Made by a program: the position numbers and the translations under genes. DNA of 46,661 nt from a virus, in IMG/VR virus record IMGVR_UViG_3300025849_000064, positions 1 to 46,661 of that record. One strand, 5' to 3'. Under the pieces are notes generated by a model, which searched no databases, was not told the origin of the DNA, and worked only from the letters and a program-made list of their open reading frames with translations. Position 1 is the first letter of the stretch. Each line of letters begins with the position of its first letter. Positions 13,345 to 46,661 of the stretch are shown here, in pieces.

Positions 13345-13352
13345 TATTTATT
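13345..13352 (-). promoter_or_regulatory. T4-type late promoter motif (AATAAATA)
   Basis: Minus strand AATAAATA, starting 18 nt upstream of the 200-aa gene and overlapping the last codons of the 5248-aa gene. It fits the NATAAATA late consensus and could restart transcription after the very long giant gene. Confidence 0.5.
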
Positions 13353-16300: not shown

Positions 16301-19300
16301 AAAACAAATTTAGATCCTGTTCCATAGTAGGTTTCTGATTCAGTTAATTCAGCAATATATACGTTGCCACTAATTCTATCAAATTTTACTTTAATATTTG
16401 CTGTACGTGCAAGACCATTACCTAAAATTACACTTGCAGTTGCAGGAGTACCATCGTCTTCTTGTGAACCTACAATTTCAATATCTGGTTTAGATATATA
16501 TCCTGAACCAGCATTAGTAACTTTGATTTCTACAATTTTTCCTTGGCTTATATAAGCTTCGGCTGTTGCATTCTGGCCGCCACCGCCGGTTATATTAACT
16601 TTTGGCTTTGTAAGATATCCCGATCCAGGATTTGCTAGTTTAATTTGTGTAATTTCGTATCCTACATTATCTAACCAGTGTTTCCTCGGATATTCAAGCA
16701 TAATATCATCTATGCCTATAAGTTGTGTTTCTTGTGCTTTAACTTTAGAAGTTTGTATACTTTTTGTATTTTGAGAATAAAATGGAGGTAAGTCAAAATC
16801 TGTTGTAGAGCTTCTTGTATTATCAAAAGCATCATAATCTGTTACAAATTCTCTTATAGTCGAACTATATGGTTTTGCTTCATTAATAAAATCTGTATAA
16901 CTTGGTAAAGTATTGTTTTGGAAGTTTCTAGGCTGATCTAACATTCCTTTATTATGTTTACCTTTTATAAAGCTAGTCTTAAATGCCCAATCTACATTAT
17001 TTTGTTCTGAGAATATATATCTTAAACTTGCAAACCATAACTTATTATATTCTACAGATAAGTTGTCTACAAACAAATTATCTCTTATTGTTTCTAATAT
17101 AATTCTTGTTTCTTTAATAGGCTGAGCATCGTAAAAATAACTATCGTATGAACGATTGTCATATCCGATAGAGTTACCTGCTAAATCATATAATGCATCT
17201 GAGAATTGTATAGAACCGTTTTGCCTACCTATAGTTTCATAATTTACTGTATAGTCATCTACAGATTCATTTGCTATTTTACGCAATAATAACCAACCGC
17301 CTGTGCTGATATTAGCAATTTTTACTGTATCGCCTATTACAGCTTCTAATCCTAATAATTCATAACTTTGGTCTACTTCGTAATCTATATTAGTAAATTC
17401 ATTTATACCTTCTTGGTACCAATCAATATAATTCCAAAATAAATTAACATCAAATTCTTGTACTTGATATCTAAACCAAGTTTTTTCATCATAGTTTAAT
17501 CTATAAATCGACCACTTGCCGAATACTGTTGAATCATTATTAACTAATACAGAAAATGGTCTAACACTTATTGATGTATTGCTTTCATAACTGTTACCTT
17601 GTGATTCTACATTTATATTTGTAATTTGACCTAGATTATTAATTGTAATATCAAAAGAGGCACCATTTCCGTTACCTATAATAGAATATGTAGGAGCAAC
17701 TTTATAGCCTCTACCAGGATTTATAATTCTAACTCTTACAATTCTACCATTTTGTATAACAGGTTCAAGTATTGCCTGTTCTGCTTTCGATATACCTACA
17801 AATTGTAATTCCGAAGTTGTATCAATTACTGCATCATATTGATTACTTAATTGAGTAGGTGCAACTTGTGCTTGTGATAATGGACTTAAATTATATAAAT
17901 CAGCAATAATATTCTTTTTCAGTATCATATTCACACGTTCTATTACTTGCTTCAATGCTTCTTCACGGTTAACAAACATACTTTGTCTTGGTCTAAATTT
18001 GTTTCCATATCTATATTTCGGAGAAAGTGTAATATCTGGAACTACTTTAAGATTTGTATCATATCCGACAAGACTATCAAACCATTTTTGTTCTATTTCT
18101 GTATTCAATTTACTTGTTTCAAGACCTTCACTTATAATCTGATATTGATTATGTATGTTTTGATCTATTGTATCTTCAGTCCATCTTATCGATAAAACAA
18201 TATCTTTATTATTAATAAAAGAATTAATGTTGTGCATTGTTAATCGATTAGCTGAAAGAAAGTTCACATGTCGATACCCTTGTGCAGAAGGATTAGTAAT
18301 TAATTTTGTAACATCTAATGCACTAATTTTTCTATCTTCTAAAGACGGAACTGTTGCTTTGTTCTTTACCCAGAAGTAGTTTTTAACAAAATATGCATTA
18401 GATACAGAATCATAAAACGTTTTTTGTGTATAGATTGCATCACTGTATATACTCTGGCCGCTGACGCCTTTTAATAATCCTTCTTGGGTATCAGCAAGTT
18501 CGTCATACTCACTAGGTGTAAATTCTGATTCTACCCATTCGTATACATCTACACTTGTGTTAAATTCTAATTTATTAAATGCACCATTTTGATAAATTGT
18601 GTCGCCCTGATAAGGGTATGTAAATCTAGCTTCGCTAATGTCCCACCATAATTTTCCAACGTTTTCTTCAGCCCAAAATTTCTCTTCATCGTATACATTT
18701 GCAACTGAACTTACATTATATCGAGCAGGATCAAACGGAATCTTATATGTTAATTCTTGTTCTGCAGGACCTGCAATTTTTCCTTGTATCGGATCTATCC
18801 AATCTAAGTAAGTTAGTATTTGATCTGTTCTTTTATTATAGAGGAAAATATTTTCAATTTTACTTGTATCAACTGGAGTAATTTTTTCTCTTGTTTTAGT
18901 CCATGCTGTTTTACCCGAATCTTTACGATATTCTAAAACTGTTCCTCTAGACTTTTGATTTAATGTTCCGTCTGGTAATATAATAGGAGCAGTACGTGTC
19001 CACTCTGCATTATCAAAGTCTCTATCTTCAATAACTAAACCCGGAGTAATATCAGCGTTAGCAACATATGCTATACCATCATATTCTACTATAGAGCCTT
19101 TTTTGTACGATTTATTTTTTGAAAATACATCGTAATCGTTTAAGATCATATTTGTCATGCCCATATAGACATGATTATTATTAATTTTTAAATTTTCACC
19201 TAATAATATTGCATCTTTATCACGTAAGACTAAGTCTTCTGCAAAAAGATATTTCTGTTCAATTTTTTCATAGTGATAAACTACACCTGAATCTTTATTA

Positions 19301-22300
19301 GAACCTGCAAATCTAGTAAAGTTATTATCAAACGCAGTTTCGCCTGTATCAAAAATAGTAGGTATTACACTATCGCCGTTTGCACTAGTAATAAAAATGC
19401 CATTATTAGTTGCAGCTACAGTAAACCCAAACAATTCAGATTCTTCATTACTAGGACTATATAACATTTGGCCTTTTGTAAATCTTGTTCCATTAAACTG
19501 ATATACATGGACTTTACCTTGATCTATTTTATTAATGTCATCAAATGGTTCGCCGATTGCTATAGTATTTCCGTCCGGACTGATCGAGATAGAATTAGCA
19601 AACCCGGTATTTGGTATATCTGGATAGATAGATTGATCTAAATAAAATTTATCATTAATTTTTCTATATACTAAGACTATAGTTTCAGGAGTTGAATTTG
19701 TTTCTTGTGTACTAGTTGTGATTAGAACGTCACCTGTAGTACTTAATTCAAATTTTTCACCAAATCTAATTATATTAGTTTCTGGATCAAAAAATACTTC
19801 ATCTCTAGCATTAAGTTGTTCTGTCCATTCATTTGGATTAAATCTGCGATTTAATTCAATACTATTAGGAGTTATATCATTATTTGCTTTATACAGTTTT
19901 TCGTTATACACTACAATCGAATCAACATTATAAGATGCATTTTTATCAAAATCTGCAAAATCATATGCAACAAATCCACTATTATTAGGAATGTAACCTA
20001 AATAATCGATTCCGGTTGGAACAATGTCCCATTGAAAATAGTTAAACGACGAATTTGCTGAAATGTTAGTTTTTGCAACAAATAATCTATTGTTTCCACT
20101 ATCAGGACCATCATATTTTACTATTTCACCAGCTCTATATGGTATTACAGGATCATATTCTCCTCTATAATCTTTGTCAATGCCGTAAACAAAGCTTATA
20201 TTTTTCCAGTATAAGTTATTTGTAACTAATATAGGATTATTAATATCTTGGATAAAATTAATTAATGTTTCATAGTATTCACCTCTAAATACTACAATAT
20301 CTCCTTGCACATAATCTGAGTTTAAATCAAATTTGCCGCGATATCTTAATGATTGCTCATCATCAAGACCATGTGTTAAAAATTCTATAGTGCCGAAATT
20401 ATTTAAAGATTCGTCGCCTGCTGAACTTACAGAAATATAATATTTGTTATTAACTTGTTTTACATTTATTCTAGATCCAAACTTTCTGTCATTTCCTCTA
20501 TATCTAGAAACTATACTTCTAATGTATGTATATGCTCCGTTTTCACTACGTCTATATACAGATATAACACCTTCATTATCAAATTTCTTTTCGCCAAAAC
20601 TGTCAACTGGTATGTTGAATACTTGTGTATAATCTTTATTAAACGAACTAGGTAAACTTGCGCTTCTCGAATCACCACTTCTAGTTTGCTCATTATATAA
20701 CCAGTATTCGTCATTAACTAAGTCTGCATTCTCTACAAGTGGCATAAAGAATGTTCCTGTTGAATCATTTATTATGTTATTTTTTACAACAAAGAGTTTG
20801 CCTATATTATCAGCTGTGTTTACAAGTGAAACTCCTACATCAACACTATCAATGACTCCCATATCTCTATCTGGATCAGCTGCTCCTCTATATAAGTCAT
20901 TACCTAATCTAGTAAATTCATATCTAGCAATATTAGTGTTGTATAATTCAAAGTTTCCGCCATAGGTAGTACCGTCATACTCTTGTAGAATTTTTACATA
21001 CACTCTTACACGTAGGAAATCTCTTTGGTAAAACATTACTTCTGCCGCACTAGTATTGTAACTGGTTAATGCAAGGCCGCCAAATTCATCAAAAGGTATT
21101 TGTTTATCAACAATTATATCTCCGCCATTTGGTCTTTCTGTAAGAACATTTCCTACATAATGATATCTAGCCTGCGGTTCAAATGGATCTCCATTAAAAT
21201 CAAATTCTGAATATTCAAATTCAATAAATCCGTCCCAGATATCAAATACATCATGAGATTTATTTATAATACTATCTTGAAATCCAAATTGTGTTAAATC
21301 AGTAGGGAAGTTTTCGTTTGACTGTAGTTCTAATTTTATACTTTCTCCTGAAACTATAGAATTAAATTCACTAGTGTTCGGAGTTCTAAATACAAATATA
21401 TCTGCAGGATAATCTGCAGGGGTATTATAAGGATTTCCTGAATAAGATAAATTTAATATTTGACTTGCTTGTCTTTTTATTCCTGTATAATCGCCTATTA
21501 CAGATGTTGTATTAAGTAAATTAAAATATTGATTCTTAACTCTAGATTCTTCAGATCTTACTAAGTCTACATATACTAAACCATTTCCGGTATCATAAAA
21601 CTCAGTACCGTTATTATAAGGTTCTGTTTCAATAAGCCAAAACCCTCCTACTACATCAGGTGTAAGATTTTCTGCTATTAATGAATATGTGCCAACTAAG
21701 TTATCATTATTTACAAACATAACTCCTGTTTGTTGAAAAACTCCGGTTGTATTTTCTAGATATACAACAGTAGTTCCTCCCTGTTCTCCTACAAAAACAA
21801 CTGTACCGGCTGCTGTTGGAGTTTCTAAAAAATCGCCTATTATTGGAAGAACAGTATATTCCGGGATACGTACTATAACTTCTACCTTGTTTTTAATTTC
21901 AAACGCACCTGTTATGTCTGTAGCTTTAATATCTAATAGGTTATTCCATGGCTCGTATGCATCATTTATATTTGGATTGTTTTTCGAATATAAATTATAT
22001 TGTAAATGTATAGTGTCTCCAACTGATGATGCAAGATACTGTTGTAACGGTGCTCTAACTAATACATGTCCTCTTCCTGTCTCAGGGTTATTAACATAGT
22101 TATTATCAAGACCAGGGGTTCCGGTAATTAATAATGCTAGTAATGTACTATCAACTGTATCGTCATTAATAAAATCAGTGTAACTACTAAAAGTGTTATA
22201 CGACTGGCTACCGATTGCTGGTAAAATATCCCTATTTGCTCTCCATAAACTTTCTTTATAATTTACAATATCAGATTTATTATATGGCAAAAATGGATCA

Positions 22301-25300
22301 AAGTTTTCTTTATATCTAGTTCTTACATTTGATGCTGTCGGAGAGCCTACAAACAAATAGTTTCCGTCAGGTGTATATGCAACCGAAGTACCATATCCTG
22401 ATTCTGCATCATCACTACTAAAAATATCTCCACCTGACGTTAAAGTTTGATCTAAGGACCATGAACTAATATCATTTGATCTACGATAAACGTGTACTCT
22501 ACCATCTAATTCTTTAGGAGATCCTACAACCATATTTCTGTTATTAGATGTAACATCTAATGTTGATGCATAATTATGAAAGGTGCCGTCGTCAGTTGTA
22601 GGATTTTCTACACTACTTTGTAGATTGTATACTTCTTCATTTCTATACACTCCCCAATTAGAATCTCCGTCAATATCATCTACCCAAATCTGTTGATTGA
22701 GTGCTTTATTTTGTTGTAGGATAGCATTTGCACTATCTAAATCTGTACTTCTTACTGATCGTAGTCCAACTACTTTTAAATCTAATTCATCGTTATGATC
22801 AACATCTACAAACTCTGGAAAATCTTTTTGTAACGGCCATTCGACTATCACATCATTTCTATTTTTTTGTATTACTTTGTAGAAATTTACTATACCAAAT
22901 AGTTCTGCATTAATAACAGAAATATAATCGCCTATTGCAATGTCTGTAGGAAATTTATTAAATGTAAATCTTACTAACGGATAATCTGAGTCTGGAGTAG
23001 TAGTAAGTTCTAAATTAACTTCTGATGTTCCGACTAATGTTAGATTTAATCTTGTAAATTGATGAACATTCCAAGTATTATTATCAATAGGAGACCAAAT
23101 ATATTGATCTTCTATTAATTGATTTACGTTAGCATAAATTATGTCTTCAAAATTTACTACTTTAAAATCTACGTCTCCGTTATATACATATCCGCTAGAT
23201 TTTATATACTCGTCAAATTTAGCCTTTGTAGGGAACGGTGAATTGTTATAATTTTTTGATTTGTGATATAGCTCAAAAGGACGCTGTCTATAAACTTTAT
23301 CTGTATTATCTTGTGGTAGATAATCAACAAGTTCAATAGGTTGCGGCGAAAGTAGCATACTCTGTTCATCTAATACAATTTCTAATTCTTCTTTTTTATC
23401 AACTGATCCGTATCTACCTACCTGGATTGCCCATTCTTCATAGAACTCTAAACTATCTTTGTCTGCTGTGTTTAACGCATCAAATAATTTATCAAGTGCA
23501 TTTTTTGTACCCTTTTCTTGTATAAATCCTTGATAGAATTTATACTGACTAACATCATCGTTGATTATATTTGACAAATATTTTCTATTTTGATAGCCTA
23601 ATAGATGTTGAGCAAGTTTTTGTTTTTCTATATCAAAATTGTCACTATCTAAATCATAAAAATCTGTAAATTCGCTAATTCTATAATCAAAATTTGTAAG
23701 TAACTGTGATTTTGGTCTTTCATCAAGTATTTGCCATTTAGATGTACTAAATGTTTCATTACCAGGAATATTTTCTAAAGCTACATAATAAAATTCTTTA
23801 TATTTTATTAAATCACCAATAACATAATCTTGCCATTCTTGCCATTCAGTTACTTTTGCATCATCAAAAACAAACCCAGGAGCATTAAGTGTGCCATTCC
23901 ACTCATCGCTTCTGTATCCTGAAACTTTTATTCTTTCTTGTCTATAACCTGTAGACGGTTTGTATATAATATCGCTAAATTGTGTAGTATTGTCTAACAG
24001 CACAACATGCTCTTTTTGCACAAGAGGAAGTTTTATGTGATATATTCCGTCTTCAGTGTTTGCTAATCCTATGCTAATGCCCTTTGCAGATCTAGCTATT
24101 CTACTAGTATCTGAGTTAATTTGACTACCGTCTGCATTTAGAATTAATCCATACTCATAAAAATTATTATTAAGATCATCTACAGTTGCAAAAGGTCTTT
24201 CAAAATCTATTAATTCTGCACTAGGACTTATAGATAGTGCATTTCCTGGTGCCCAGTTTTGAGTTGTCCAGAATAAAAATTCTCTTACTGCATATGTCCA
24301 GTTTTTAATATTATTAGAGCCAGCAAATTGTTCAAACTTAAAGCCTAGTGTATTTAAATATTCTCCATAACCTATTAAAAAGTCTACTACTTCTTGACTA
24401 GTTCTTAATGTTTCACCGTAATTAAGATAACTTGTAATAGAACTAAATTTTTGAGCTACAGTTGCAGATTTTCCGCCCACAACTGGTGCTTCAGAAAGTC
24501 GAACTAAATTAGTATCATCAAATTGTGCGTTACTTTTATGATTTTTTGTTACTCTATAAAATACTGTTCCGTCTTCGACAACTTGACCTTTATAATAATT
24601 TTTTTCCGGTTGCCACTTAACAAATTCTTCGCTAACTCCTCCTACCGAAATTTTCGGATCTGAAAATGAAGTAATCGGTTTATAATATGAAAATTGCGGC
24701 TTAGACGGATCATAACCTTTAATTATATAACCAGATGCACTTTTTTGTACAATTACACCACTGTAGTTAGCAATATCAACCGGTGTACTTTTATGTAAGA
24801 ATATTTTATAGTTTTCTTCAGGTACAAATACATTACCTTGATTATAAGGTGTTCTACTGTCTAATAATAATTTAAACTTATCTTTATTACTAAACCCAGC
24901 TATTTTAAAACCCATTTTGTTTTTAATTGATTTAACATTGTTAATATAATCTTCGTATATTTTTGTTACATAGCCTGAAATATAATTATACTGGTAATTC
25001 ACTAACCCACTTGTATAAATTCTTTCATCATCATTATACGTATTAGGAAATTTAATTTTTTCTAATTCTATACTTTTTCCTGTAGGAGTGTAAACTAATT
25101 GTCCGCAGAAATTTCTAGACATTCTAGAAATATCAAAAGCAGTACCAAGTACTTTAGCTGGTTGATTTAGTAAGTAACTAAGCAATATTGCAAAAGGATA
25201 TTCGCTTGAATTTCTCCATGCTGCTTCTACTGGAGCAAAATCTCCAAATGTAAATCGTTGACGTGTATAACTTGCAACATAATTCTTTGCAAAATTACTT

Positions 25301-28300
25301 TCTAACGGAGCAGTTAAATTTCCTCTATCGTCTGCGGGAATATGAGATACTAATCCCGGTCTTACATATTTTGGATTTCTAATAGGTAATTTTCCTGGCT
25401 CTCTTATCAAGCCTTCTTGTAAATCTTCCCATAATACTAAATTATTTTTTGTATACGGAGCTACTCCATAAACTTCGTCCCACCAAGAAGGTTTGATTGT
25501 AAATCCTATCATTTCCCATGGATGACTGTGTGGACGATCTGTGTCATATGCTTGCTTATAAATACCTCTCCAAAATCCTGGCAAGGTTTCGTCATCAGGT
25601 CCGGTCATTGAAGAATAATTTATTAAAAATTTATCCGATCTATTATAAAAACTATTTTCTGTATAATCTTCATCAACTATTTGATTCCATTGCAAGAAAT
25701 CAATCAATAACGTATTATCTATTTCCTGTTTAGTAAATTTGGTATCTCTATAAAATCCTCCAACATAATCATTAATGTCAAAGATGTTAGGATTATAATT
25801 TACTTTAATATTATTAAATATTCGTTTTTCAAATTCTAATAATAAATCATCTCGATAGTCGTTAAATGCTACAGTAATACTTCCGTCGTGGCCTTGTATT
25901 ACTCGTGTAGGTTCTCTAAATCTATCATCAATATAAATTTTTGGTTCGTAACTAGGATACAATCCTAGTTTTGTAGGTGTAGGCGGAACATACGATCCAT
26001 CTGTTGAACTATACTCATAAATTTCAATAGTATCGCCAACTTCTTTATCGGCTATGATAACAGCAAATCCTTCAGAACTAAATGTATAATCACGTCCTTT
26101 TAATAATTGAGTACCGTTCAAATAAACATTAACCGCAGTAGTGCTTATTATGCTGTCGTCAAATGGATTACTTATTGCAAAAAAAGGATTTGTGTTATCT
26201 AGTACTTCGTAAACTAATCTTTTACCTGTATTATAAGATATCATATCACTAAAATAAAATGGCATATTAGATGTTTTATCTTTATTAATTTCTAATAATA
26301 TTTTATCTAAATGCTGTATTACTGGTCCTGAATATCCTAATTTTGTAGCAGTTTGTATAAGCTGTCTTTTAAATTTTGCATACTCTTGTTTAGAAAAACG
26401 TAAAGCACTTACAATATTATGTTCCTGAGAATTTAAATGATAATTTGCTAAATTTACAGGTCCAGAATGTTTCATAAATCTAGTACCAAACTTATCAAGA
26501 TCTCCTAAATCTCTTAAATTACTTTTTCCAGGATATGTACCGTCAAATTTAGGAATTTCACCTATCATTGTATTGACATGGTCTACAACTTCTCCTAATG
26601 TAAAATCAACTACATTTTCATTTAACGGGTTTCTTTCTAAGTTATTAGGTATTTCATAAAATCCATTTTTAGATTTAGGACTATTTGATAAAGTTTTTAT
26701 AATTACAATTTGATTTTCTTGTAAATTATTTGTAAATCTTACAAAAGTTTTTTTATTAATTCTATCTATTTGATAATCTACATTTTCTTTTTGAAATCTG
26801 TCATTAACAAATACCTTGACTTTTAAATCTGTTAGTAAAGTTGAATTTTCGTAAACATCAATTTCAAAGTTATTATTTTGTTGTAATGTAGATGTGTATT
26901 GTCTAATAACATACTGTTTTGTTATTGTGGGGTGAGATGCCCAGCCGTTTTGATATTTAAAATCTTCTCGACTTGTATATTTTCTTAAATATGCATTATC
27001 TGTATAGACTGTACTAATACCAGTTTCACTTTGTGTAGTAAATGTATCTGATAATAAATTAAAGTCAAACACAATATCGCCACTATTATCTATAGTTCTA
27101 TAGCTTAAAGGAAATCCTAATTCTTCATCAGGAGTTCCAGTTCCTTCTCTATAACTAAAAAGCTTTGTTCCTGTAAAATTTGAACTTTCAAATATAGCAG
27201 AGTCGCCAAAGTCGTTTCCATTAGGACAACATAAATCAAATTTAGGCGGCTGGTTAGTTTTTGTTTTTAATTGTCCTAGATTCCATTTGTTATTAGTAAA
27301 ATGATAACTTTTACCTGCATTATTAGTACCCTTTGTAACTAAAACAGTTTCTAAATCTAATGGATTAGAATCATCAGTTTCAAATAAACTTATTTGTCTA
27401 TAACCTTGGAAGTTCAAAAACTTTACAATATATATTTTGTCTTTGACAAGTATATCTGTATCAGCAGTAAAAAGTATTCGCATACCTTCAGTTATATCAA
27501 CACCGTCGATATTATAGCCAGATGAGCCTTCTATAATAGAAAATACATCTGTTGTAAAATCATCAATAAGATCAATATCTTTTTTTGCAAATGTTCCAAA
27601 ATTAAATAATTTTAATCCTGCTTCAAATTCAATAATAGGACGTTTAGCTCTAGCATCTTCATCAATATTAACCTGTGTTAAATTAATTTCAGCACTTTTA
27701 TCTATAACATCTCTATGAATCCACCTATTATATCTAGACCAGGCATTTTTGTCAATTGCTGCACGATTAGAAACAATATAATCTTTTGTTGCAGGATATG
27801 AATTATTATTACTCCATGGCAATATATCAAATCCTTGGGAGTCAAACGGAACTAATCTATTTTCAGAATATGATGCAGGAATAATTAAATCTATAGTGTT
27901 TACTAATCTAATCTTGTCGCCGACACCCTCAACATAATACTGACCTGTTTCGTAACTTTGTGGCACTGTGTCCCCAAGGAAGTATACTTTCATTCCATTT
28001 GAAACACTCCAGCCATCTTTTGTTGTGTATTCTTTTTTACCTAATATTTCTGCTGCTACATCGATAGATGTATTTTCTTCAATATCATATACTCGGATAT
28101 TGCCACTAGTATTCACATCATTTTTTGATATGTAAAATAATTTATCAGGCGCATTATCAGGAATAGTAAATTCTATAGTTCCCTTTTCAATATATAGGGT
28201 TGCAATTTCTTCATTATCTTCGTTTAGTTTTCTTATTCCATCTGGATAAAGTGTAGAAATATTTTCGGCATCGTCTTCAAAAGTAATTATACCGTCTGCA

Positions 28301-29094
28301 GGTATTACAAAAAAATCACCTGGTTCAGACACAGCACCTTCTTCGTTATATATAACTGAATTATATAAATCAGGGCCACTTGAATCATCTCTTCTGCCAG
28401 TTAATAATGCTGACCCGGGTGTAAAGGTTCGTGATAACGCAAATGCCATAGGATGACCTGGAGTATCTATTTCAAATTTATAAGTCTGTCCTCTATATAA
28501 TTTTAAGTTAGGATTTCTACTAAATCCATTTGGAGAAAATACATAAGCAAAATTATCGTCGTCTTCTTCTAATGTAACTGTGTATGTACTTTCAATTCCT
28601 CTTTCTTGACCTTGGATTGCAACAGGCTGCGGTCCTTCAGGTATCCAGTAATATTCACGAAAGTTTACAAATTTATCCCAGTCAATACCAGGGTTCCATG
28701 CATAAGACTCTTGAGAATTTAATTTGCTGTGATTAGCAACTGATCCTGAAAAATTACTTATAGAATTGATATAATCGATATAGTCGCCATAAAATTTTAC
28801 ATTGCCTAAATTATCTTCTATTACAGTTGCAGGTTCAAATTGATAGTTTTCTCTATCTAATGATATATCTCCGATATAGTTATCTGTAGTAGTATTATAT
28901 GATTTGGCATGCTTTCTTCCAAAATATCCTGATAGTTTTTCTGCTGTGCCTGGTTGTGTTAATTGATCTAGTGTTGCTTGTAAAAAATTAATGTTTGCAG
29001 TAGTTCTAAAGAATTTTGGTAATAGATTACTTGTTTTTCTTTCAGAATCTCCAGGAACTGGCAAACTGTATTCGTTTTGATTATTATTAGACAT
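13348..29094 (-). CDS. Giant 5248-aa baseplate wedge/structural protein (gp7-position)
   Basis: One uninterrupted frame of 5248 codons takes up a third of the window. It directly follows gp6 (TAATG overlap), the place of gp7/gp8 in T4, so a wedge or peripheral baseplate role is likely. A central segment (about residues 1800-1900: FDYRISEFTDFYDLDSDN, HLLGYQNRKYL, FYQGFIQEKGTKNALDKL) resembles what I recall as gp7 of cyanophages. Seven ChtBD3/CBM-like modules (pattern Y..GD.V.Y....Y.A....P....W) occur near residues 1490, 1745, 2258, 2917, 2975, 3041 and 3318. FG-GAP-like propeller repeats (GSPKELDGRVHVYRR, GEPFDDINKIDQGKVHVY) lie between 2150 and 3250. GSGY..KP.V.I.G repeats lie near 3795 and 4155-4200, and beta repeats fill the C-terminus. 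An N-terminal LYRGQTYKFEIDTPGHP stretch near residue 200 looks cupredoxin-like. The exact T4 equivalence is uncertain. Confidence 0.8.
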   Translation of the reverse strand: MSNNNQNEYSLPVPGDSERKTSNLLPKFFRTTANINFLQATLDQLTQPGTAEKLSGYFGRKHAKSYNTTTDNYIGDISLDRENYQFEPATVIEDNLGNVKFYGDYIDYINSISNFSGSVANHSKLNSQESYAWNPGIDWDKFVNFREYYWIPEGPQPVAIQGQERGIESTYTVTLEEDDDNFAYVFSPNGFSRNPNLKLYRGQTYKFEIDTPGHPMAFALSRTFTPGSALLTGRRDDSSGPDLYNSVIYNEEGAVSEPGDFFVIPADGIITFEDDAENISTLYPDGIRKLNEDNEEIATLYIEKGTIEFTIPDNAPDKLFYISKNDVNTSGNIRVYDIEENTSIDVAAEILGKKEYTTKDGWSVSNGMKVYFLGDTVPQSYETGQYYVEGVGDKIRLVNTIDLIIPASYSENRLVPFDSQGFDILPWSNNNSYPATKDYIVSNRAAIDKNAWSRYNRWIHRDVIDKSAEINLTQVNIDEDARAKRPIIEFEAGLKLFNFGTFAKKDIDLIDDFTTDVFSIIEGSSGYNIDGVDITEGMRILFTADTDILVKDKIYIVKFLNFQGYRQISLFETDDSNPLDLETVLVTKGTNNAGKSYHFTNNKWNLGQLKTKTNQPPKFDLCCPNGNDFGDSAIFESSNFTGTKLFSYREGTGTPDEELGFPLSYRTIDNSGDIVFDFNLLSDTFTTQSETGISTVYTDNAYLRKYTSREDFKYQNGWASHPTITKQYVIRQYTSTLQQNNNFEIDVYENSTLLTDLKVKVFVNDRFQKENVDYQIDRINKKTFVRFTNNLQENQIVIIKTLSNSPKSKNGFYEIPNNLERNPLNENVVDFTLGEVVDHVNTMIGEIPKFDGTYPGKSNLRDLGDLDKFGTRFMKHSGPVNLANYHLNSQEHNIVSALRFSKQEYAKFKRQLIQTATKLGYSGPVIQHLDKILLEINKDKTSNMPFYFSDMISYNTGKRLVYEVLDNTNPFFAISNPFDDSIISTTAVNVYLNGTQLLKGRDYTFSSEGFAVIIADKEVGDTIEIYEYSSTDGSYVPPTPTKLGLYPSYEPKIYIDDRFREPTRVIQGHDGSITVAFNDYRDDLLLEFEKRIFNNIKVNYNPNIFDINDYVGGFYRDTKFTKQEIDNTLLIDFLQWNQIVDEDYTENSFYNRSDKFLINYSSMTGPDDETLPGFWRGIYKQAYDTDRPHSHPWEMIGFTIKPSWWDEVYGVAPYTKNNLVLWEDLQEGLIREPGKLPIRNPKYVRPGLVSHIPADDRGNLTAPLESNFAKNYVASYTRQRFTFGDFAPVEAAWRNSSEYPFAILLSYLLNQPAKVLGTAFDISRMSRNFCGQLVYTPTGKSIELEKIKFPNTYNDDERIYTSGLVNYQYNYISGYVTKIYEDYINNVKSIKNKMGFKIAGFSNKDKFKLLLDSRTPYNQGNVFVPEENYKIFLHKSTPVDIANYSGVIVQKSASGYIIKGYDPSKPQFSYYKPITSFSDPKISVGGVSEEFVKWQPEKNYYKGQVVEDGTVFYRVTKNHKSNAQFDDTNLVRLSEAPVVGGKSATVAQKFSSITSYLNYGETLRTSQEVVDFLIGYGEYLNTLGFKFEQFAGSNNIKNWTYAVREFLFWTTQNWAPGNALSISPSAELIDFERPFATVDDLNNNFYEYGLILNADGSQINSDTSRIARSAKGISIGLANTEDGIYHIKLPLVQKEHVVLLDNTTQFSDIIYKPSTGYRQERIKVSGYRSDEWNGTLNAPGFVFDDAKVTEWQEWQDYVIGDLIKYKEFYYVALENIPGNETFSTSKWQILDERPKSQLLTNFDYRISEFTDFYDLDSDNFDIEKQKLAQHLLGYQNRKYLSNIINDDVSQYKFYQGFIQEKGTKNALDKLFDALNTADKDSLEFYEEWAIQVGRYGSVDKKEELEIVLDEQSMLLSPQPIELVDYLPQDNTDKVYRQRPFELYHKSKNYNNSPFPTKAKFDEYIKSSGYVYNGDVDFKVVNFEDIIYANVNQLIEDQYIWSPIDNNTWNVHQFTRLNLTLVGTSEVNLELTTTPDSDYPLVRFTFNKFPTDIAIGDYISVINAELFGIVNFYKVIQKNRNDVIVEWPLQKDFPEFVDVDHNDELDLKVVGLRSVRSTDLDSANAILQQNKALNQQIWVDDIDGDSNWGVYRNEEVYNLQSSVENPTTDDGTFHNYASTLDVTSNNRNMVVGSPKELDGRVHVYRRSNDISSWSLDQTLTSGGDIFSSDDAESGYGTSVAYTPDGNYLFVGSPTASNVRTRYKENFDPFLPYNKSDIVNYKESLWRANRDILPAIGSQSYNTFSSYTDFINDDTVDSTLLALLITGTPGLDNNYVNNPETGRGHVLVRAPLQQYLASSVGDTIHLQYNLYSKNNPNINDAYEPWNNLLDIKATDITGAFEIKNKVEVIVRIPEYTVLPIIGDFLETPTAAGTVVFVGEQGGTTVVYLENTTGVFQQTGVMFVNNDNLVGTYSLIAENLTPDVVGGFWLIETEPYNNGTEFYDTGNGLVYVDLVRSEESRVKNQYFNLLNTTSVIGDYTGIKRQASQILNLSYSGNPYNTPADYPADIFVFRTPNTSEFNSIVSGESIKLELQSNENFPTDLTQFGFQDSIINKSHDVFDIWDGFIEFEYSEFDFNGDPFEPQARYHYVGNVLTERPNGGDIIVDKQIPFDEFGGLALTSYNTSAAEVMFYQRDFLRVRVYVKILQEYDGTTYGGNFELYNTNIARYEFTRLGNDLYRGAADPDRDMGVIDSVDVGVSLVNTADNIGKLFVVKNNIINDSTGTFFMPLVENADLVNDEYWLYNEQTRSGDSRSASLPSSFNKDYTQVFNIPVDSFGEKKFDNEGVISVYRRSENGAYTYIRSIVSRYRGNDRKFGSRINVKQVNNKYYISVSSAGDESLNNFGTIEFLTHGLDDEQSLRYRGKFDLNSDYVQGDIVVFRGEYYETLINFIQDINNPILVTNNLYWKNISFVYGIDKDYRGEYDPVIPYRAGEIVKYDGPDSGNNRLFVAKTNISANSSFNYFQWDIVPTGIDYLGYIPNNSGFVAYDFADFDKNASYNVDSIVVYNEKLYKANNDITPNSIELNRRFNPNEWTEQLNARDEVFFDPETNIIRFGEKFELSTTGDVLITTSTQETNSTPETIVLVYRKINDKFYLDQSIYPDIPNTGFANSISISPDGNTIAIGEPFDDINKIDQGKVHVYQFNGTRFTKGQMLYSPSNEESELFGFTVAATNNGIFITSANGDSVIPTIFDTGETAFDNNFTRFAGSNKDSGVVYHYEKIEQKYLFAEDLVLRDKDAILLGENLKINNNHVYMGMTNMILNDYDVFSKNKSYKKGSIVEYDGIAYVANADITPGLVIEDRDFDNAEWTRTAPIILPDGTLNQKSRGTVLEYRKDSGKTAWTKTREKITPVDTSKIENIFLYNKRTDQILTYLDWIDPIQGKIAGPAEQELTYKIPFDPARYNVSSVANVYDEEKFWAEENVGKLWWDISEARFTYPYQGDTIYQNGAFNKLEFNTSVDVYEWVESEFTPSEYDELADTQEGLLKGVSGQSIYSDAIYTQKTFYDSVSNAYFVKNYFWVKNKATVPSLEDRKISALDVTKLITNPSAQGYRHVNFLSANRLTMHNINSFINNKDIVLSIRWTEDTIDQNIHNQYQIISEGLETSKLNTEIEQKWFDSLVGYDTNLKVVPDITLSPKYRYGNKFRPRQSMFVNREEALKQVIERVNMILKKNIIADLYNLSPLSQAQVAPTQLSNQYDAVIDTTSELQFVGISKAEQAILEPVIQNGRIVRVRIINPGRGYKVAPTYSIIGNGNGASFDITINNLGQITNINVESQGNSYESNTSISVRPFSVLVNNDSTVFGKWSIYRLNYDEKTWFRYQVQEFDVNLFWNYIDWYQEGINEFTNIDYEVDQSYELLGLEAVIGDTVKIANISTGGWLLLRKIANESVDDYTVNYETIGRQNGSIQFSDALYDLAGNSIGYDNRSYDSYFYDAQPIKETRIILETIRDNLFVDNLSVEYNKLWFASLRYIFSEQNNVDWAFKTSFIKGKHNKGMLDQPRNFQNNTLPSYTDFINEAKPYSSTIREFVTDYDAFDNTRSSTTDFDLPPFYSQNTKSIQTSKVKAQETQLIGIDDIMLEYPRKHWLDNVGYEITQIKLANPGSGYLTKPKVNITGGGGQNATAEAYISQGKIVEIKVTNAGSGYISKPDIEIVGSQEDDGTPATASVILGNGLARTANIKVKFDRISGNVYIAELTESETYYGTGSKFVFDLNFPMDLNNTKVKVLIDNKEQLRSRYTFANTENLDKTYTREQGQIIFTTPPKVGAEIVIDYYKPISMLTAQDRLAYGYNPTTGMFGIGENNDGSMNFAQLMDGIDYGGVEVRSFEFEGPAGWGSGEWYSTSWDVYDNTYEDEIFTFDGSTVSIKLSQPLTQDIEYNVYLNGVRIDDPNFDSGKFDYNGVIINSIIGDGTTDTIFLDELGITVADGDVLIIRKNTSDGSVTPDTESYDTALSGGDLNYQTAQGINAEDIIVDGDGFVTPTTSKGPEELVPGQLVDTLDIKVYHREGDGQGKIYSQSYKTDGTVEFNLELTPSTKDAVIVKLDNVILSNDKYTIDFVNNTVTLNEVPDSEKELNIITISAGQQKILTTDAFVGDGVKYEVIVDVDYTELLDVFATIDGVQVSTTLVNYDSTDSTNKNLKGNLLIRFDTPPTENAQVNYIVFYDNTKINYSQVTKDVFKGDGSSVLYNLTQSPLYKLPTQHNTIVKVDNKILNPGYNKQFVVDSNNRIVEYNELSEELVGTTQYSLDLFQQPEASITVNDLLVILNGETITFPAQWRFDIFNNAIELTPGTGNEGDILEIYVVTDGEYTIDGTDVTFKVPPADNSLIEVIKFTNHDILQTERINLDVVARSIISEGQDEFVIYHRLTRGEIELRYPAIDAQYVWVSINGELLSPTVDYHITSDLKKVQLLELPNPNDVIDIIHFAAPVVTNTFAFRQFKDMLNRTHFKRLDSAATTLSQDLNYYDLRIEVIDGTKLPEPNKGKNIPGVIFIEGERIEYLVKEGNLLRQLRRGTLGTGTKDIINAGTNIFDQGISKTIPYRDQIITQNFTTDGISSNFALDFVPNNLNEFEVFYAGRRLRKNEIDIFDQTLALDSNEGDVLSPGEFILPEFDFTDNTRPLSPTIGTQHMQSEYIFTWNGISWKSNSLILNFVPQENLQVTVVRKIGKTWTTPGESLVESNNNIARFVRDSDSGLLE

Positions 29095-40524: not shown

Positions 40525-41468
40525 TAAATAAATCCTTCTCCTGTAGAAGCATAGCCGCCATTTGCAAAAGTATTCAAACTAAATTTACTCTGTGCTCTTC
40601 TACTGTATTGCGGCATACATGTAACTGTCATTGTAGTCTGTGTTGGAACATAATTAGTTTGACCCATAAAGTTTACCGGAATATAATCTACATCTGATGG
40701 TAAATCCATTGTAAATCCTTGTATTAAAACTGGGATATTACTTAAGACATGCGGGCCATATCCATTTAATCTACATAGTAACGGAGGATTGCCTTTTGGA
40801 GAACTTTCTCCATAAAACATTTTTGTCATTGTCCTTAGATAGTGTACAACTGAAAGATAGTACACTCCGTCTGTAGCATATTCATTATAATATTCTCCGA
40901 TAATAGTAATTGCATCTACTTGACTATTTTGATATGCATTATAAGGATAATTTGTATGTATAGGTTGAATTTGTGAATAGTTAGTACTATTACCAAAAAG
41001 TATACTAGGTGTAAAAGGAAAAACAACTTCATTATTAGTCTGTGAAAAGCTAGATAAAGTAGGTGCATCTCTAATTGTATTAGGCACACTTAATCTTACT
41101 CTCCAAGATGCAGCATTAGAATTTTGCCCGCCGGCGCCAGATGCTGCATTTCTAGTTGATGCAGAATTAGGGTCTTGCCAGCCGCCGCCGCCAGATGTAC
41201 TAGTAAATATAGCCGAAACTCCTTGTCTAAGAAGAGTATTTGCGCCTGCGCCAACACCTTGTGAAAGGTTTTGTAACATTCTATTTTGAGAAGCTAATCT
41301 TGTAGGATCTAAAGAAAGCTGACCTTGGTTTCGGTATCCTATGTCATTATTTCTGTTTGATGCTATTTGAGCTGTGCTTCTAACTTCGGCTCCTAATTGG
41401 TTAAATACTGTTTGTGCAGCATTTTGCCCAATTGACGCCAATTGATTAAACGCATTTAGAATAGACAT
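40524..41468 (-). CDS. gp48: Baseplate tail tube cap protein (gp48-like)
   Basis: A 314-aa protein and the first gene of the baseplate block. The N-terminal 130 residues are low-complexity, Q/N/A/G-rich. The conserved part starts at WRVRLSVPN and includes FPFTPSILFGNSTNYSQI, IHTNYPYNAYQNSQVDAI, VVHYLRTMTKMFYG, LNGYGPHVLSNIPVLIQGF, LPSDVDYIPV and the closing RAQSKFSLNTFANGGY. This is the pattern I know from cyanophage gp48, which caps the hub and nucleates tail tube growth. T4 has two such proteins (gp48, gp54) and this could correspond to either, but gp48 is the usual name in marine relatives. AGGAGA lies just upstream of the ATG. A weak late-promoter motif lies 21 nt upstream, back to back with the gp55 promoter. 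Confidence 0.8.
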   Translation of the reverse strand: MSILNAFNQLASIGQNAAQTVFNQLGAEVRSTAQIASNRNNDIGYRNQGQLSLDPTRLASQNRMLQNLSQGVGAGANTLLRQGVSAIFTSTSGGGGWQDPNSASTRNAASGAGGQNSNAASWRVRLSVPNTIRDAPTLSSFSQTNNEVVFPFTPSILFGNSTNYSQIQPIHTNYPYNAYQNSQVDAITIIGEYYNEYATDGVYYLSVVHYLRTMTKMFYGESSPKGNPPLLCRLNGYGPHVLSNIPVLIQGFTMDLPSDVDYIPVNFMGQTNYVPTQTTMTVTCMPQYSRRAQSKFSLNTFANGGYASTGEGFI

Positions 41469-43469: not shown

Positions 43470-45242
43470 ATGATTAAGATTAAAGATCTTACAGTAAAAA
43501 ACTTTATGAGTGTAGGTAATCAAACTCAAGCAGTTGATTTTGATAAGGAGCAACTGACTCTTGTACTAGGAGAGAATCTAGATCAAGGAGGCGACGATAG
43601 TGGATCACGTAACGGTACTGGTAAAACTACAATTATTAATGCGCTAAGTTATGCATTGTACGGTACTGCATTAACAAATATTAAACGAAACAACTTAATT
43701 AATAAAACTAATAGTAAAGGAATGTTAGTTACACTACATTTCGAAAAGGACGGGCTCGATTATAGAATTGAGAGAGGTAGATCTCCTAATATTTTAAAGT
43801 TTTTTATTAATGGACAGGAACAAGAATTAATCGACGAGTCACAGGGTGACAGTCGAAAAACACAAGAAACAATTAATGATTTACTTAATATGAGTCATGA
43901 TATGTTTAAACATATTGTTGCATTAAACACATACAGTGAGCCATTTTTATCAATGAGAGCAAACGATCAACGTGCTATTATTGAACAATTACTCGGTATT
44001 ACAATTTTGACTGAAAAAGCAGACAGTCTTAAAGATGAAATTAAAAGTAGTAAAGACGAAATTACTCAAGAGACATTAAAAATTAATGCTATTGAATCGT
44101 CTAACGAAAAAATACAAACCACTATTGATAAATTGCAAAAAAATCTTCGTGCTTGGAATGCTAAAAAGAAACAAGACATAGAAAAATTACAAAGAGCTAT
44201 TGCTGAATTAGAACATTTAGATATCGAAACCGAACTTGATAATCATGAAAAATTATCAAATTGGACTGAACATAATAATGCTATTTTGGCTCTTAATAAA
44301 GAAAAAAGTACATTAGAGAACGCACTATTACGTGCAACATCTTCTGTAGAAAAAGCAGAAAAAGACATCGCAAATTTAGACGATGCAACTTGTTATACAT
44401 GCGGTCAAGAACTACATAATGACAAAAAAGAAGAAATTTTGTTAACAAAAAATAAAGAACTTAACGATACAATGGCATATCAAACAGAAATTGCTGGAAA
44501 ACTTGAAGAGGCAATGAAGGCACTTAGTGACATCGGTGACATTAATGGTAAGCCTACTACGTTTTACGAATCTGCAAAAGAAGCATATGAGCATAGAAAT
44601 AACGTTGATAATTTAAAATCAGCATTATCAAATAAAGAAACTGAAGAAGATCCTTACAATTCACAAATTGAAGAACTAACAAATACAGCACTGCAAGAAA
44701 TTAATTGGAATATTATTAATCAATTAACAGAATACAAAGAACATCAAGAATTCTTGTTAAAACTATTAACAAACAAAGATAGTTTTATCCGCAAGAAGAT
44801 TATTGATCAAAACCTAGCATATCTAAACAACAGACTTACATATTATCTTGACAAACTAGGATTGCCGCATCAAGTGTTGTTCCAAAACGATTTAAACGTT
44901 GAGATTACGCAACTAGGACAAGATCTAGACTTTGATAACTTGAGCAGAGGCGAACGCAACAGACTTATCTTAGGATTGAGCTTTGCATTCCGTGATGTTT
45001 GGGAAAGCCTGTATCAAAATATCAACTTGTTGTTTATTGATGAATTAATCGATAGCGGCATGGATAGTGCTGGAGTTGAAAATTCTCTAAGTGTATTGAA
45101 AAAGATGGGCAGAGAACGTGATAAAAATATCTATTTGATTAGTCACAAAGACGAACTAGTTGGCAGAGTTAATCATGTTCTCAAAGTTATAAAAGAAAAC
45201 GGTTTTACTAATTACGAAAACGATATTGAGATAGTAGAATGA
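43470..45242 (+). CDS. gp46: Recombination endonuclease subunit gp46 (Rad50/SbcC-type ATPase)
   Basis: A 590-aa SMC-type ATPase. Walker A is GSRNGTGKTT (residues 45-54). A coiled coil runs from about 185 to 440 and is broken by a zinc hook CYTCGQEL with C308 and C311. The ABC signature LSRGE is at 491-495 and Walker B LLFIDE at 520-525 (D524, E525). Two subunits dimerise through the hook and ATP heads and regulate the gp47 nuclease. The size matches T4 gp46 (560 aa). It is directly preceded by gp47 and overlaps the next small gene by 4 nt (ATGA), so all are co-translated. It works in the cytoplasm in recombination-dependent replication. Confidence 0.94.
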   Translation: MIKIKDLTVKNFMSVGNQTQAVDFDKEQLTLVLGENLDQGGDDSGSRNGTGKTTIINALSYALYGTALTNIKRNNLINKTNSKGMLVTLHFEKDGLDYRIERGRSPNILKFFINGQEQELIDESQGDSRKTQETINDLLNMSHDMFKHIVALNTYSEPFLSMRANDQRAIIEQLLGITILTEKADSLKDEIKSSKDEITQETLKINAIESSNEKIQTTIDKLQKNLRAWNAKKKQDIEKLQRAIAELEHLDIETELDNHEKLSNWTEHNNAILALNKEKSTLENALLRATSSVEKAEKDIANLDDATCYTCGQELHNDKKEEILLTKNKELNDTMAYQTEIAGKLEEAMKALSDIGDINGKPTTFYESAKEAYEHRNNVDNLKSALSNKETEEDPYNSQIEELTNTALQEINWNIINQLTEYKEHQEFLLKLLTNKDSFIRKKIIDQNLAYLNNRLTYYLDKLGLPHQVLFQNDLNVEITQLGQDLDFDNLSRGERNRLILGLSFAFRDVWESLYQNINLLFIDELIDSGMDSAGVENSLSVLKKMGRERDKNIYLISHKDELVGRVNHVLKVIKENGFTNYENDIEIVE

Positions 45243-45478: not shown

Positions 45479-45928
45479 ATGAGTTGGACATATAAAGGTA
45501 AAGAAATATCCGAAATACCAGATGAGTACGAAGGATTTGTTTATCTTATTACCAACTCAACTAACAATCAAAAATACATAGGCAAAAAACTAGCAAAGTT
45601 TAAAACTACTAAGCCACCACTTAAAGGCAAGAAGAATAAACGTAGAGGCTACAAAGAAAGCGACTGGAAAACCTATTGGGGATCTAGTGATAGACTAAAC
45701 GCAGATGTAGCAGCATTAGGCGAAGATAAGTTTACAAGAGAAATACTATACCTATGTAAAGGTAGGGGCGAAATGTCCTACATAGAGGCAAGAGAACAGT
45801 TTGATAGGCGTGTACTCGAAACAGATGAATACTACAACGGTATTATCAATGTTAGAGTAGGCGGATCAGACAAACTCAAACAGGCATTGTTAGAACATCA
45901 CATCCAGGCAAAACAATCTAACACATAA
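45479..45928 (+). CDS. SegE-like GIY-YIG endonuclease-family protein
   Basis: A 149-aa protein of the GIY-YIG superfamily: FVYLITNSTNNQKYIGKK (residues 20-37) gives the paired VYL/YIG strands. A basic loop KGKKNKRR, ESDWKTYWGSS (60-70), FTREILYLC (85-93) and a helix EAREQF with E103 in the position of the metal-binding glutamate follow, then EYYNGIINVR with N120. This is the arrangement of phage SegE-like proteins. It lacks a separate DNA-binding domain, so homing activity is uncertain. Homologues are common in T4-like phages and may be housekeeping nucleases rather than homing enzymes. It is the last gene of the gp47-gp46 operon and directly abuts the structured non-coding region. Confidence 0.8.
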   Translation: MSWTYKGKEISEIPDEYEGFVYLITNSTNNQKYIGKKLAKFKTTKPPLKGKKNKRRGYKESDWKTYWGSSDRLNADVAALGEDKFTREILYLCKGRGEMSYIEAREQFDRRVLETDEYYNGIINVRVGGSDKLKQALLEHHIQAKQSNT

Positions 45929-46320
45929 GGTTGGCGGGCCAGATTAATTTACCGCTGTGGAAAAAGCTCTCGTATAGAAGCACACGTAACATGCTGAGTC
46001 GCGCCTGGTAATAAGGCGTTGGATTGGCATAGGTTGAATGTTAGCAGTCGAAAAACACAAACACAGTACATAAAAACTCTTTAGCAATAGGAACGAAGCG
46101 AGAGGTAGCTGGAAACAGCGATGTCGACGTAGGTTGGGAAAGGTCAGAGCCCATTGTACTTTGTGTATAAACAATTACCTACTTCCAATGTCTCGGCTGG
46201 TGCATGACTCACATGAAGCGCATTTTGAGATTAGATGGGACCGTAACAGGTTCCGTCTGACTGAAACGATCTACATGAAACTTAAACATTATGACATTCG
46301 TCATAATGCATCTATATATT
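45929..46320 (+). ncRNA. Candidate structured non-coding RNA, class not recognised
   Basis: A stretch of about 400 nt directly after the GIY-YIG stop without a credible ORF. Hand-counted GC for 45961-46260 is 134/300 (about 45%), against 18-25% in sampled coding lines elsewhere. Helices that can be read directly: 45932-45937 with 45952-45957; CTCTCG 45967-45972 with CGAGAG 46099-46104; CGCCT 46002-46006 with AGGCG 46014-46018; GCTG/CAGC closed by a GAAA tetraloop (46108-46119); GTAGGT 46129-46134 with ACCTAC 46177-46182, enclosing TGGG/CCCA and ATTGT/ACAAT hairpins; and a 12-bp hairpin 46231-46260 with loop GTAACA. The last contains three G-U pairs that would be A-C mismatches on the other strand, so the plus strand is the likely transcript. 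No tRNA, tmRNA, RNase P or group I intron core signatures were found. Confidence 0.6.
46287..46308 (+). other. Perfect 9-bp hairpin at the end of the structured region
   Basis: CATTATGAC (46287-46295), loop ATTC, GTCATAATG (46300-46308). The stem is perfect but no U-run follows, so it is more likely a 3'-end stabilising or processing hairpin of the RNA than a classical terminator. Confidence 0.5.
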
Positions 46321-46379
46321 AATACTAATAGCTTTTATCAACAAACGAAGTATTATAGTTCGAGCGTTTAGCGAAAACT

Positions 46380-46404
46380 AATATCTACGAAGTAGATATT
46401 TTAA
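46380..46404 (+). terminator. Possible weak terminator hairpin
   Basis: AATATCTAC (46380-46388), loop GAA, GTAGATATT (46392-46400), then TTAATAATAAA. It is a perfect 9-bp stem, AT-rich, with a short T-rich tail. It would end transcripts of the recombination operon plus RNA just before the late-promoter motif of the next gene. The weak stem and short T-run leave it uncertain. Confidence 0.35.
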
Positions 46405-46405
46405 T

Positions 46406-46413
46406 AATAAATA
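46406..46413 (+). promoter_or_regulatory. T4-type late promoter motif (AATAAATA)
   Basis: AATAAATA followed by CTTTGCAGGAG, 20 nt upstream of the ATG at 46433. It is a perfect NATAAATA match in intergenic DNA, directly after the terminator-like hairpin, so the last gene of the window is probably expressed late. Confidence 0.6.
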
Positions 46414-46432: not shown

Positions 46433-46661
46433 ATGAAAATTAATGAAACTAAAAAAGATGATTTAGATGAAGGTCCTTTAGATCTATTAACTAAAAGTGG
46501 TAGAGATCAAAGACGTGCATTTAAAGGTGGTCGTGGTACATTAAAAAAGACAACTGATAATCTTAAAAAAGAATTTGCAAGTTACCTCGGACGTCAAGGC
46601 AAGAAAAACTTTAAACAAGCAACTACTCAAGATGTAATTGACTTTCTTGATGGGAAAAATG
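46433..46661 (+). CDS. Small lysine-rich protein, unrecognised (3' end cut by window edge)
   Basis: The ATG at 46433 has AGGAG 8 nt upstream. The 76 visible residues begin MKINETKKDDLDEGPLDLL and continue basic and glycine-rich (GGRGTLKKTTDNLKKEF, then GRQGKKNFKQAT). The frame is open to the window edge. The acidic EGP-type N-terminus followed by a basic helical part resembles small proteins scattered in marine T4-like phage genomes, whose function I do not know. Late expression is suggested by the AATAAATA motif just upstream. The codon pattern looks like its neighbours. Confidence 0.65.
   Translation, partial: MKINETKKDDLDEGPLDLLTKSGRDQRRAFKGGRGTLKKTTDNLKKEFASYLGRQGKKNFKQATTQDVIDFLDGKN

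Follow-up and report, generated by a model that had tools for sequence, protein, structure and literature searches.

A conserved structured RNA behind a DNA-repair operon

What is encoded between the last gene of the DNA-repair operon and the late gene that follows it, near the end of the 46,661-nucleotide viral DNA stretch analyzed here (i.e., the window)? The plus-strand operon at this end carries genes for a late sigma factor, gp47-like and gp46-like proteins, a 78-aa product, and a SegE-type GIY-YIG endonuclease. Behind it, an earlier note made from the sequence alone had placed a probable structured RNA. We confirm that the region from 45929 to 46400 encodes a structured noncoding RNA on the plus strand (~480 bases); its homologues, their covariation, and plus-strand folding all bear the claim out. 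We regard the existence of a conserved and previously unrecorded structured RNA family as virtually certain.

In 159 loci, the SegE stop codon marks the start of the conserved body; the conserved DNA ends with hairpin H2 (46399). On the 5′ side, the RNA gene probably extends to 45906 (i.e., 45906 to 46400). The 5′ element concerned is retained directly ahead of the RNA where a gene other than SegE precedes it, and part of this element is also present in a non-T4 phage. Loci in which an extra gene separates SegE from the RNA retain the 23 bases leading into the latter (AGGCAAA..CAAYCYAACACATAA); therefore, the element begins within the 3′ end of SegE, at about 45906.

The locus had also been described as having no usable frame, and no conserved protein frame was found. 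The only frames of at least 60 aa within the RNA are of 62 aa (plus strand) and 76 aa (minus strand), no consistent counterparts of either were found in the homologues, and among these homologues the length of the inserts in helices P3 and P7 varies freely. The reported G+C island is present (43 to 44.5% at the RNA in 200-base windows), but the 20 to 30% assumed for the rest of the genome was too low (~26 to 41% in neighboring sequence). G+C content alone proves little because a coding stretch (41100 to 41299) reaches 46.5%. The folding energy of the plus strand is −129 kcal/mol (z = −3.3 versus shuffled sequence), while the minus strand folds no better than shuffled sequence (z = −1.0).

Homologues and covariation

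Searches of viral contigs via SegE and gp46 yielded 157 loci, more than 100 of which have similar DNA directly behind SegE. Pattern scans raised the number of RNA-bearing viral loci to ~250, and a divergent type (type II) accounts for 76 further loci, a few of which were already among the ~250. The RNA is present in a single copy per contig. Apart from one non-T4 group (see below), the phages carrying it are of T4 type (gp23, gp46/47, and late sigma), gp23 being present in large relatives of the window.

For covariation, 198 near-full-length matches were reduced to 128 distinct sequences and aligned with MAFFT; the null came from our own script, which replayed the inferred substitutions on the tree. 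Over all possible column pairs, 12 were significant, and all 12 are base pairs, spread over six helices. We specified the core structure, including its pseudoknot, by hand and scored it on a separate alignment of 30 sequences. Here, 95.5% of the cells were paired (slid partners, only 36 to 50%), changes on both sides occurred in 14 of 27 pairs, and none of 500 shuffles reached the observed score on four of five measures, pairing and covariation included. Nearly every helix is kept through compensatory changes in the 128 distinct homologues. The check on collected homologues that the earlier note had proposed thus gave strong covariation and no conserved frame, and the RNA stands.

When three divergent copies were compared with 50,697 phage records by blastn, no full match emerged; therefore, no isolate in that collection has the RNA at that sensitivity. 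In a search run partly without a positive control, the initial RNA model found no copy in seven isolate genomes, including that of Methylophilales phage Melnitz, whose SegE is the closest among isolates (70.8%). Two contigs of a Neomarinimicrobiota MAG (L278/L279; PBPT01000016.1 and PBPT01000082.1) carry the RNA behind SegE. They are poor host evidence because they probably come from phages and were binned into the MAG. Among 80 contigs (L002 to L081), 26 end 0 to 500 bases behind the SegE stop codon, compared with ~5 per 500 bases further on, and about ten of these ends cluster at 139 to 149 bases behind the stop codon. The stretch is an assembly break hot spot, probably because co-occurring phages have near-identical RNA cores.

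Helices and pseudoknots

At least eight helices had been read by hand; we identified ~14, plus two pseudoknots (Table 1). The hand-read helices exist, but several belong to a pseudoknotted core and not to a simple nested fold. In this core, P5 is crossed by P8 and P10. The three-way arrangement noted at 46129 to 46182 is real, but it is a pseudoknot rather than a nested element, P8 enclosing both P9 and the 3′ strand of P5. The second pseudoknot (PK2), which joins the P9 loop to the 3′ strand behind P11, is without compensatory proof because it is nearly invariant.

Hairpin P6 is compensated again in non-T4 phages. The GAAA (GNRA) tetraloop hairpin seen earlier exists as P7, and the loop is GUAA, GCAA, or GAAA in other short-P7 homologues; because of the inserts, P7 does not align column by column as a helix. 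The 12-bp hairpin and its three G-U pairs are likewise present, in the extended form of P11, of which 46234 to 46242/46249 to 46257 was scored. Toward the 3′ end, the tandem G-A element of H1 is almost invariant and precedes the exchangeable terminal hairpin H2. A search of the window for the H1 consensus gave no other copy. Five pairs of H2 are significant in the tree-based test, and H2 is the probable 3′ end of the RNA.

TABLE 1 Features at and near the RNA locus (window coordinates). Pairing percentages for helices are over 128 sequences, with slid-strand controls where given.
Feature	Position	Strand	Evidence or remarks
gp46-like recombination exonuclease subunit	43470–45242	+	PHROG 77, E = 5e-105
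SegE-like GIY-YIG endonuclease gene	45479–45928	+	Pfam PF19835, 121 bits
Conserved 5′ element AGGCAAAACAATCTAACACATAA	45906–45928	+	Overlaps last SegE codons in the window
Structured noncoding RNA, whole conserved body	45929–46400	+	~250 homologous loci; covariation
Helix P1	45932–45957	+	93.4% paired; slid, 32–73%
Helix P2 (outer, inner)	45956–45986	+	82% and 90% paired; inner, double changes in 3/3 pairs
Helix P3, hypervariable allele-like extension	45990–46031	+	84% paired; slid, 22–45%
Helix P4	46032–46049	+	91% paired; double changes in 4/5 pairs
Helix P5, half of core pseudoknot	46061–46166 (core 46066–46070/46155–46159)	+	98.1% paired; double changes 5/5
Hairpin P6, conserved 12-base loop (ANNAGGAACGAA type)	46077–46104	+	95.8% paired; double changes in 4/7 pairs
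Hairpin P7, GNRA loop (short alleles), variable inserts in others	46108–46119	+	46% column by column
Helix P10, crosses P5	46123–46127/46193–46197	+	97.7% paired
Helix P8, crosses P5	46129–46134/46177–46182	+	98.7% paired
Hairpin P9	46135–46153	+	98% paired; two double-change pairs
PK2, GGUCAGA (46142–46148) with UCUGACU (46256–46262)	46142–46262	+	98.3% paired; slid, 15–43%
ACUC + heptamer R1 (ACATGAA at 46211–46217)	46207–46217	+	Identical to R2 in 182/188 RNAs
Hairpin P11	46234–46257 (extendable to 46231–46260)	+	96.4% paired
AUCU + heptamer R2 (ACATGAA at 46273–46279)	46269–46279	+	14 substitutions shared with R1
Hairpin H0	46286–46309	+	74% paired; double changes in 10/10 pairs
Hairpin H1, tandem G-A (UUGAGCG..AGCGAA)	46357–46379	+	86% paired
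Terminal hairpin H2	46381–46399	+	92.7% paired; double changes in 8/8 pairs
T4-type late promoter TAATAAATA of next gene	46405–46413	+	TAAATA motif

Twin heptamers that change together

Each RNA carries ACUC-N7 before P11 and AUCU-N7 behind it (i.e., heptamers R1 and R2), with a spacing of 50 to 68 bases. The flanks CUC and UCU are invariant and differ from each other, while R1 equals R2 in nearly all of the 188 distinct RNAs (Table 1), which represent 15 alleles. Mismatches between the copies all fall at position 7, except in one locus (L080) that was evidently misparsed by the script. For each RNA, this script chooses the best-fitting of about two CUC candidates, which introduces a slight bias toward identity; the tree test is free of that bias because fixed alignment columns were used. 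On the tree of the 128 sequences, R1 underwent 16 substitutions and R2 underwent 14, and the identical change occurred on the same branch in both copies 14 times (0.2 expected). Positions 4 to 6 of the heptamer are UGA or UAA in nearly all alleles, possibly by chance.

No complement following the alleles, with G-U allowed, was found from 450 bases upstream to 300 bases downstream, and an intramolecular partner (Watson-Crick or G-U) was rejected since no covarying complement exists inside the RNA. A limited search near gene starts (94 gene families in nine large contigs) gave no convincing partner. Copying of the repeats by a reverse transcriptase was also rejected, with none found in ten records. 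Identical words that change together imply either one common partner or a process that needs their identity; of the two, we lean toward the common partner.

Genomic neighborhood and transcription

Most of the homologues share one genomic neighborhood, so a cis role is possible for those loci. No good promoter of the RNA's own was seen in the window, and cotranscription with the operon is therefore possible. In two other loci (L116 and L055), a sigma-70 consensus (TTGACA-17-TATACT) lies ~75 to 105 bases ahead of the RNA, between it and the operon. On the other side, behind the last hairpin, the T4-type late promoter motif TAAATA stands no more than 75 bases ahead of the next start codon in 115 of 116 distinct loci (compared with 3% of random 75-mers), mostly at a distance of 25 to 38 bases, and the proteins of the next gene vary (24 clusters). 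The RNA is thus not the leader of that gene, and a cis-regulatory leader of the riboswitch type is ruled out. The variable late genes behind the RNA (46433 to 46660 in the window, and homologues) mostly start M-[KR]-x-x-[ED]-[IV]..E, which resembles the N terminus that targets the internal head proteins of T4 to the capsid; possibly, the RNA lies next to a locus at which internal head proteins are exchangeable. Elsewhere in the window, an open frame of 5248 aa lies among structural genes (13348 to 29094, minus strand).

The position beside gp46 and a GIY-YIG gene, which had been pointed out as new, is correct, but the tie to the GIY-YIG gene is positional and no partnership: in five type-II loci, a gene for a RusA-like/PDDEXK nuclease replaces SegE. 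Three contigs of an unrelated, non-T4 phage group (L379 [= L211], L380, and L381 [= L376]) have the RNA without a gp46, gp47, or SegE match; it is preceded by a gene for a zinc-ribbon-like protein of 66 to 69 aa and followed by terminase genes. The portal and capsid genes of L211 are unlike those of T4, and its capsid protein had no match in the phage collection. P5 and P6 of L379 and L381, as read by eye, are rebuilt with different bases. The independence of the RNA from its neighboring genes is well supported.

The zinc-ribbon-like gene (HGGKVICNTCNKHVAWIPK) lies directly before the RNA in L211 (13740 to 13943, minus strand), L380 (904 to 1113), and L381 (3995 to 4195). It takes the same position in the T4-type loci L113, L094, L239, L271, L191, L156, and L204, and several T4-type loci have related zinc-ribbon genes between SegE and the RNA. 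The gene may have traveled with the RNA.

Comparison with known RNA families

Searches with the covariance models of Rfam 15, among them those for GOLLD, ROOL, RNase P, SRP, and introns, gave no match in the window at the gathering score, nothing relevant (chance matches only) at E values of ≤10 in the window, L154, and L212, and none at E values of ≤1 in eight divergent loci. The proposed novelty holds up at this level, neither the copy in the window nor any of 10 divergent ones matching a family. A tmRNA identity was rejected: ARAGORN found no tmRNA at the RNA locus, the alpha_tmRNA model found nothing there in ten records, and the RNA has no tRNA-like end or tag frame. On a type-II phage contig, far from the RNA, the alpha_tmRNA model matches weakly (G017:C1:3637-3799; 24.5 bits compared with a gathering score of 50). 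A group I intron was rejected as well, since the RNA stands between complete genes (a stop codon before it, and a late promoter and start codon after it). We found no description of the RNA in the open literature, a coverage that mostly excludes subscription journals and preprints.

GOLLD and ROOL are nearest in kind. Like the present RNA, they are large, structured, pseudoknotted, phage-borne, and noncoding, and their function is unknown (PMC12286853). Unlike them, this RNA has no Rfam match, is ~480 bases long (many GOLLD RNAs exceed 800), carries coevolving direct heptamers, and is not beside tRNAs; ARAGORN found no tRNAs in a 236-kb relative. The two-piece tmRNA of marine phages known from Melnitz, which has a glutamine riboswitch with it (PMC9004378), is also a large structured RNA of a marine T4-like phage, but the RNA described here lacks a tRNA-like end and a tag frame and is absent from Melnitz itself. 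Crossing helices around a core and a nearby homing-type endonuclease are shared with group I introns, while the missing Rfam match, the absence of exons, the different helix order, and the presence of the RNA without the endonuclease are not. OLE RNA, a large structured RNA of bacteria, shows tight sequence conservation in its single-stranded parts. The present RNA shares this feature, but it has no Rfam match and belongs to phages, next to a recombination operon.

Proposed function and alternatives

The reading that we favor, tentatively and at somewhat less than an even chance, is that of an independent, trans-acting structured RNA gene of a marine T4-type phage group, the two heptamers of which bind one external partner. 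Synthesis of the RNA would fall in the early or middle phase; transcription would either run on from the gp47-gp46-SegE operon or start at a dedicated promoter, and the RNA would be released at H2. Its rigid core (P5/P8/P10, the P9 loop helix, and P11) would keep the heptamers apart, flanking P11, and R1 and R2 would act as two equal contact sites. A single hypothetical partner, most likely either a protein that reads sequence or a strand of host or phage RNA or DNA, would bind both sites, which would have to change together for that reason. The likely purpose would be capture, inhibition, or scaffolding of the partner during infection.

It is unlikely that the RNA is instead a cis-acting 3′ UTR element by which the gp47-gp46-SegE message has its 3′ end protected or processed and is set apart from the late gene that follows. 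Such a role would fit the start of the body at the SegE stop codon, the location immediately after the operon, on the same strand, in almost every locus, and the terminal hairpins ahead of the late promoter. However, the RNA is far too complex for a terminator or stabilizer, is kept behind a different nuclease gene and, in a different phage, behind the small zinc-ribbon gene by the terminase, and is separated from the operon by consensus promoters in two loci; its 5′ element, moreover, survives the insertion of another gene in front. Self-assembly into a multimer or cage, with the heptamers and the GNRA loop as contact points, seems distinctly improbable: the heptamers are identical rather than complementary, the RNA contains no complement to them, and there is no Rfam match to GOLLD or ROOL. 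What speaks for it is a large, pseudoknotted, phage-borne RNA with GNRA loops kept and no known protein partner, together with the multimerization of GOLLD and ROOL via kissing loops and A-minor contacts (PMC12286853).

Direct repeats can anneal or exchange strands only if they are identical, and the RNA adjoins recombination genes, as might be expected of a DNA-level element (i.e., an origin, recombination, or packaging site) at which the repeats anneal or recombine and the RNA primes or marks the site. The many contig ends within the RNA stretch would agree with this, as would the cumulative GC-skew minimum of the 236-kb relative (G004) at ~150.9 kb, 5 kb before the RNA (maximum at 66 kb). 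That minimum, however, coincides with a gene-direction switch, which confounds it; the repeat spacing varies; and the compensatory changes, including G-U pairs, together with the strand asymmetry in folding, indicate selection on RNA. We consider a DNA-level element very unlikely. There is only a slight probability that the RNA is catalytic, whether by kinship with group I introns or by convergence on them, and either remains from SegE homing or serves it. Its crossing of P5 by P8/P10, with internal hairpins, recalls the P3/P7 arrangement of those introns, and a homing-type endonuclease gene lies next door, but no Rfam intron model matched, no exon is interrupted, and the RNA is present without SegE.

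The favored reading of a trans-acting RNA with one external partner has a bolder form, which is possible though doubtful: a new class of phage RNA acting as a bivalent reader, in which a rigid pseudoknotted scaffold offers one word twice to a single partner, and word and partner coevolve. If this is true, recognition specificity would be switched by rewriting two seven-base sites. To our knowledge, few large structured RNAs of phages are well supported, and those known (GOLLD and ROOL) have no assigned function. Hundreds of marine viral contigs carry the present RNA, which has moved from one phage group to another. Its co-changing heptamers provide a handle that GOLLD and ROOL do not offer; they allow a simple double-mutant test, which should lead to the partner.
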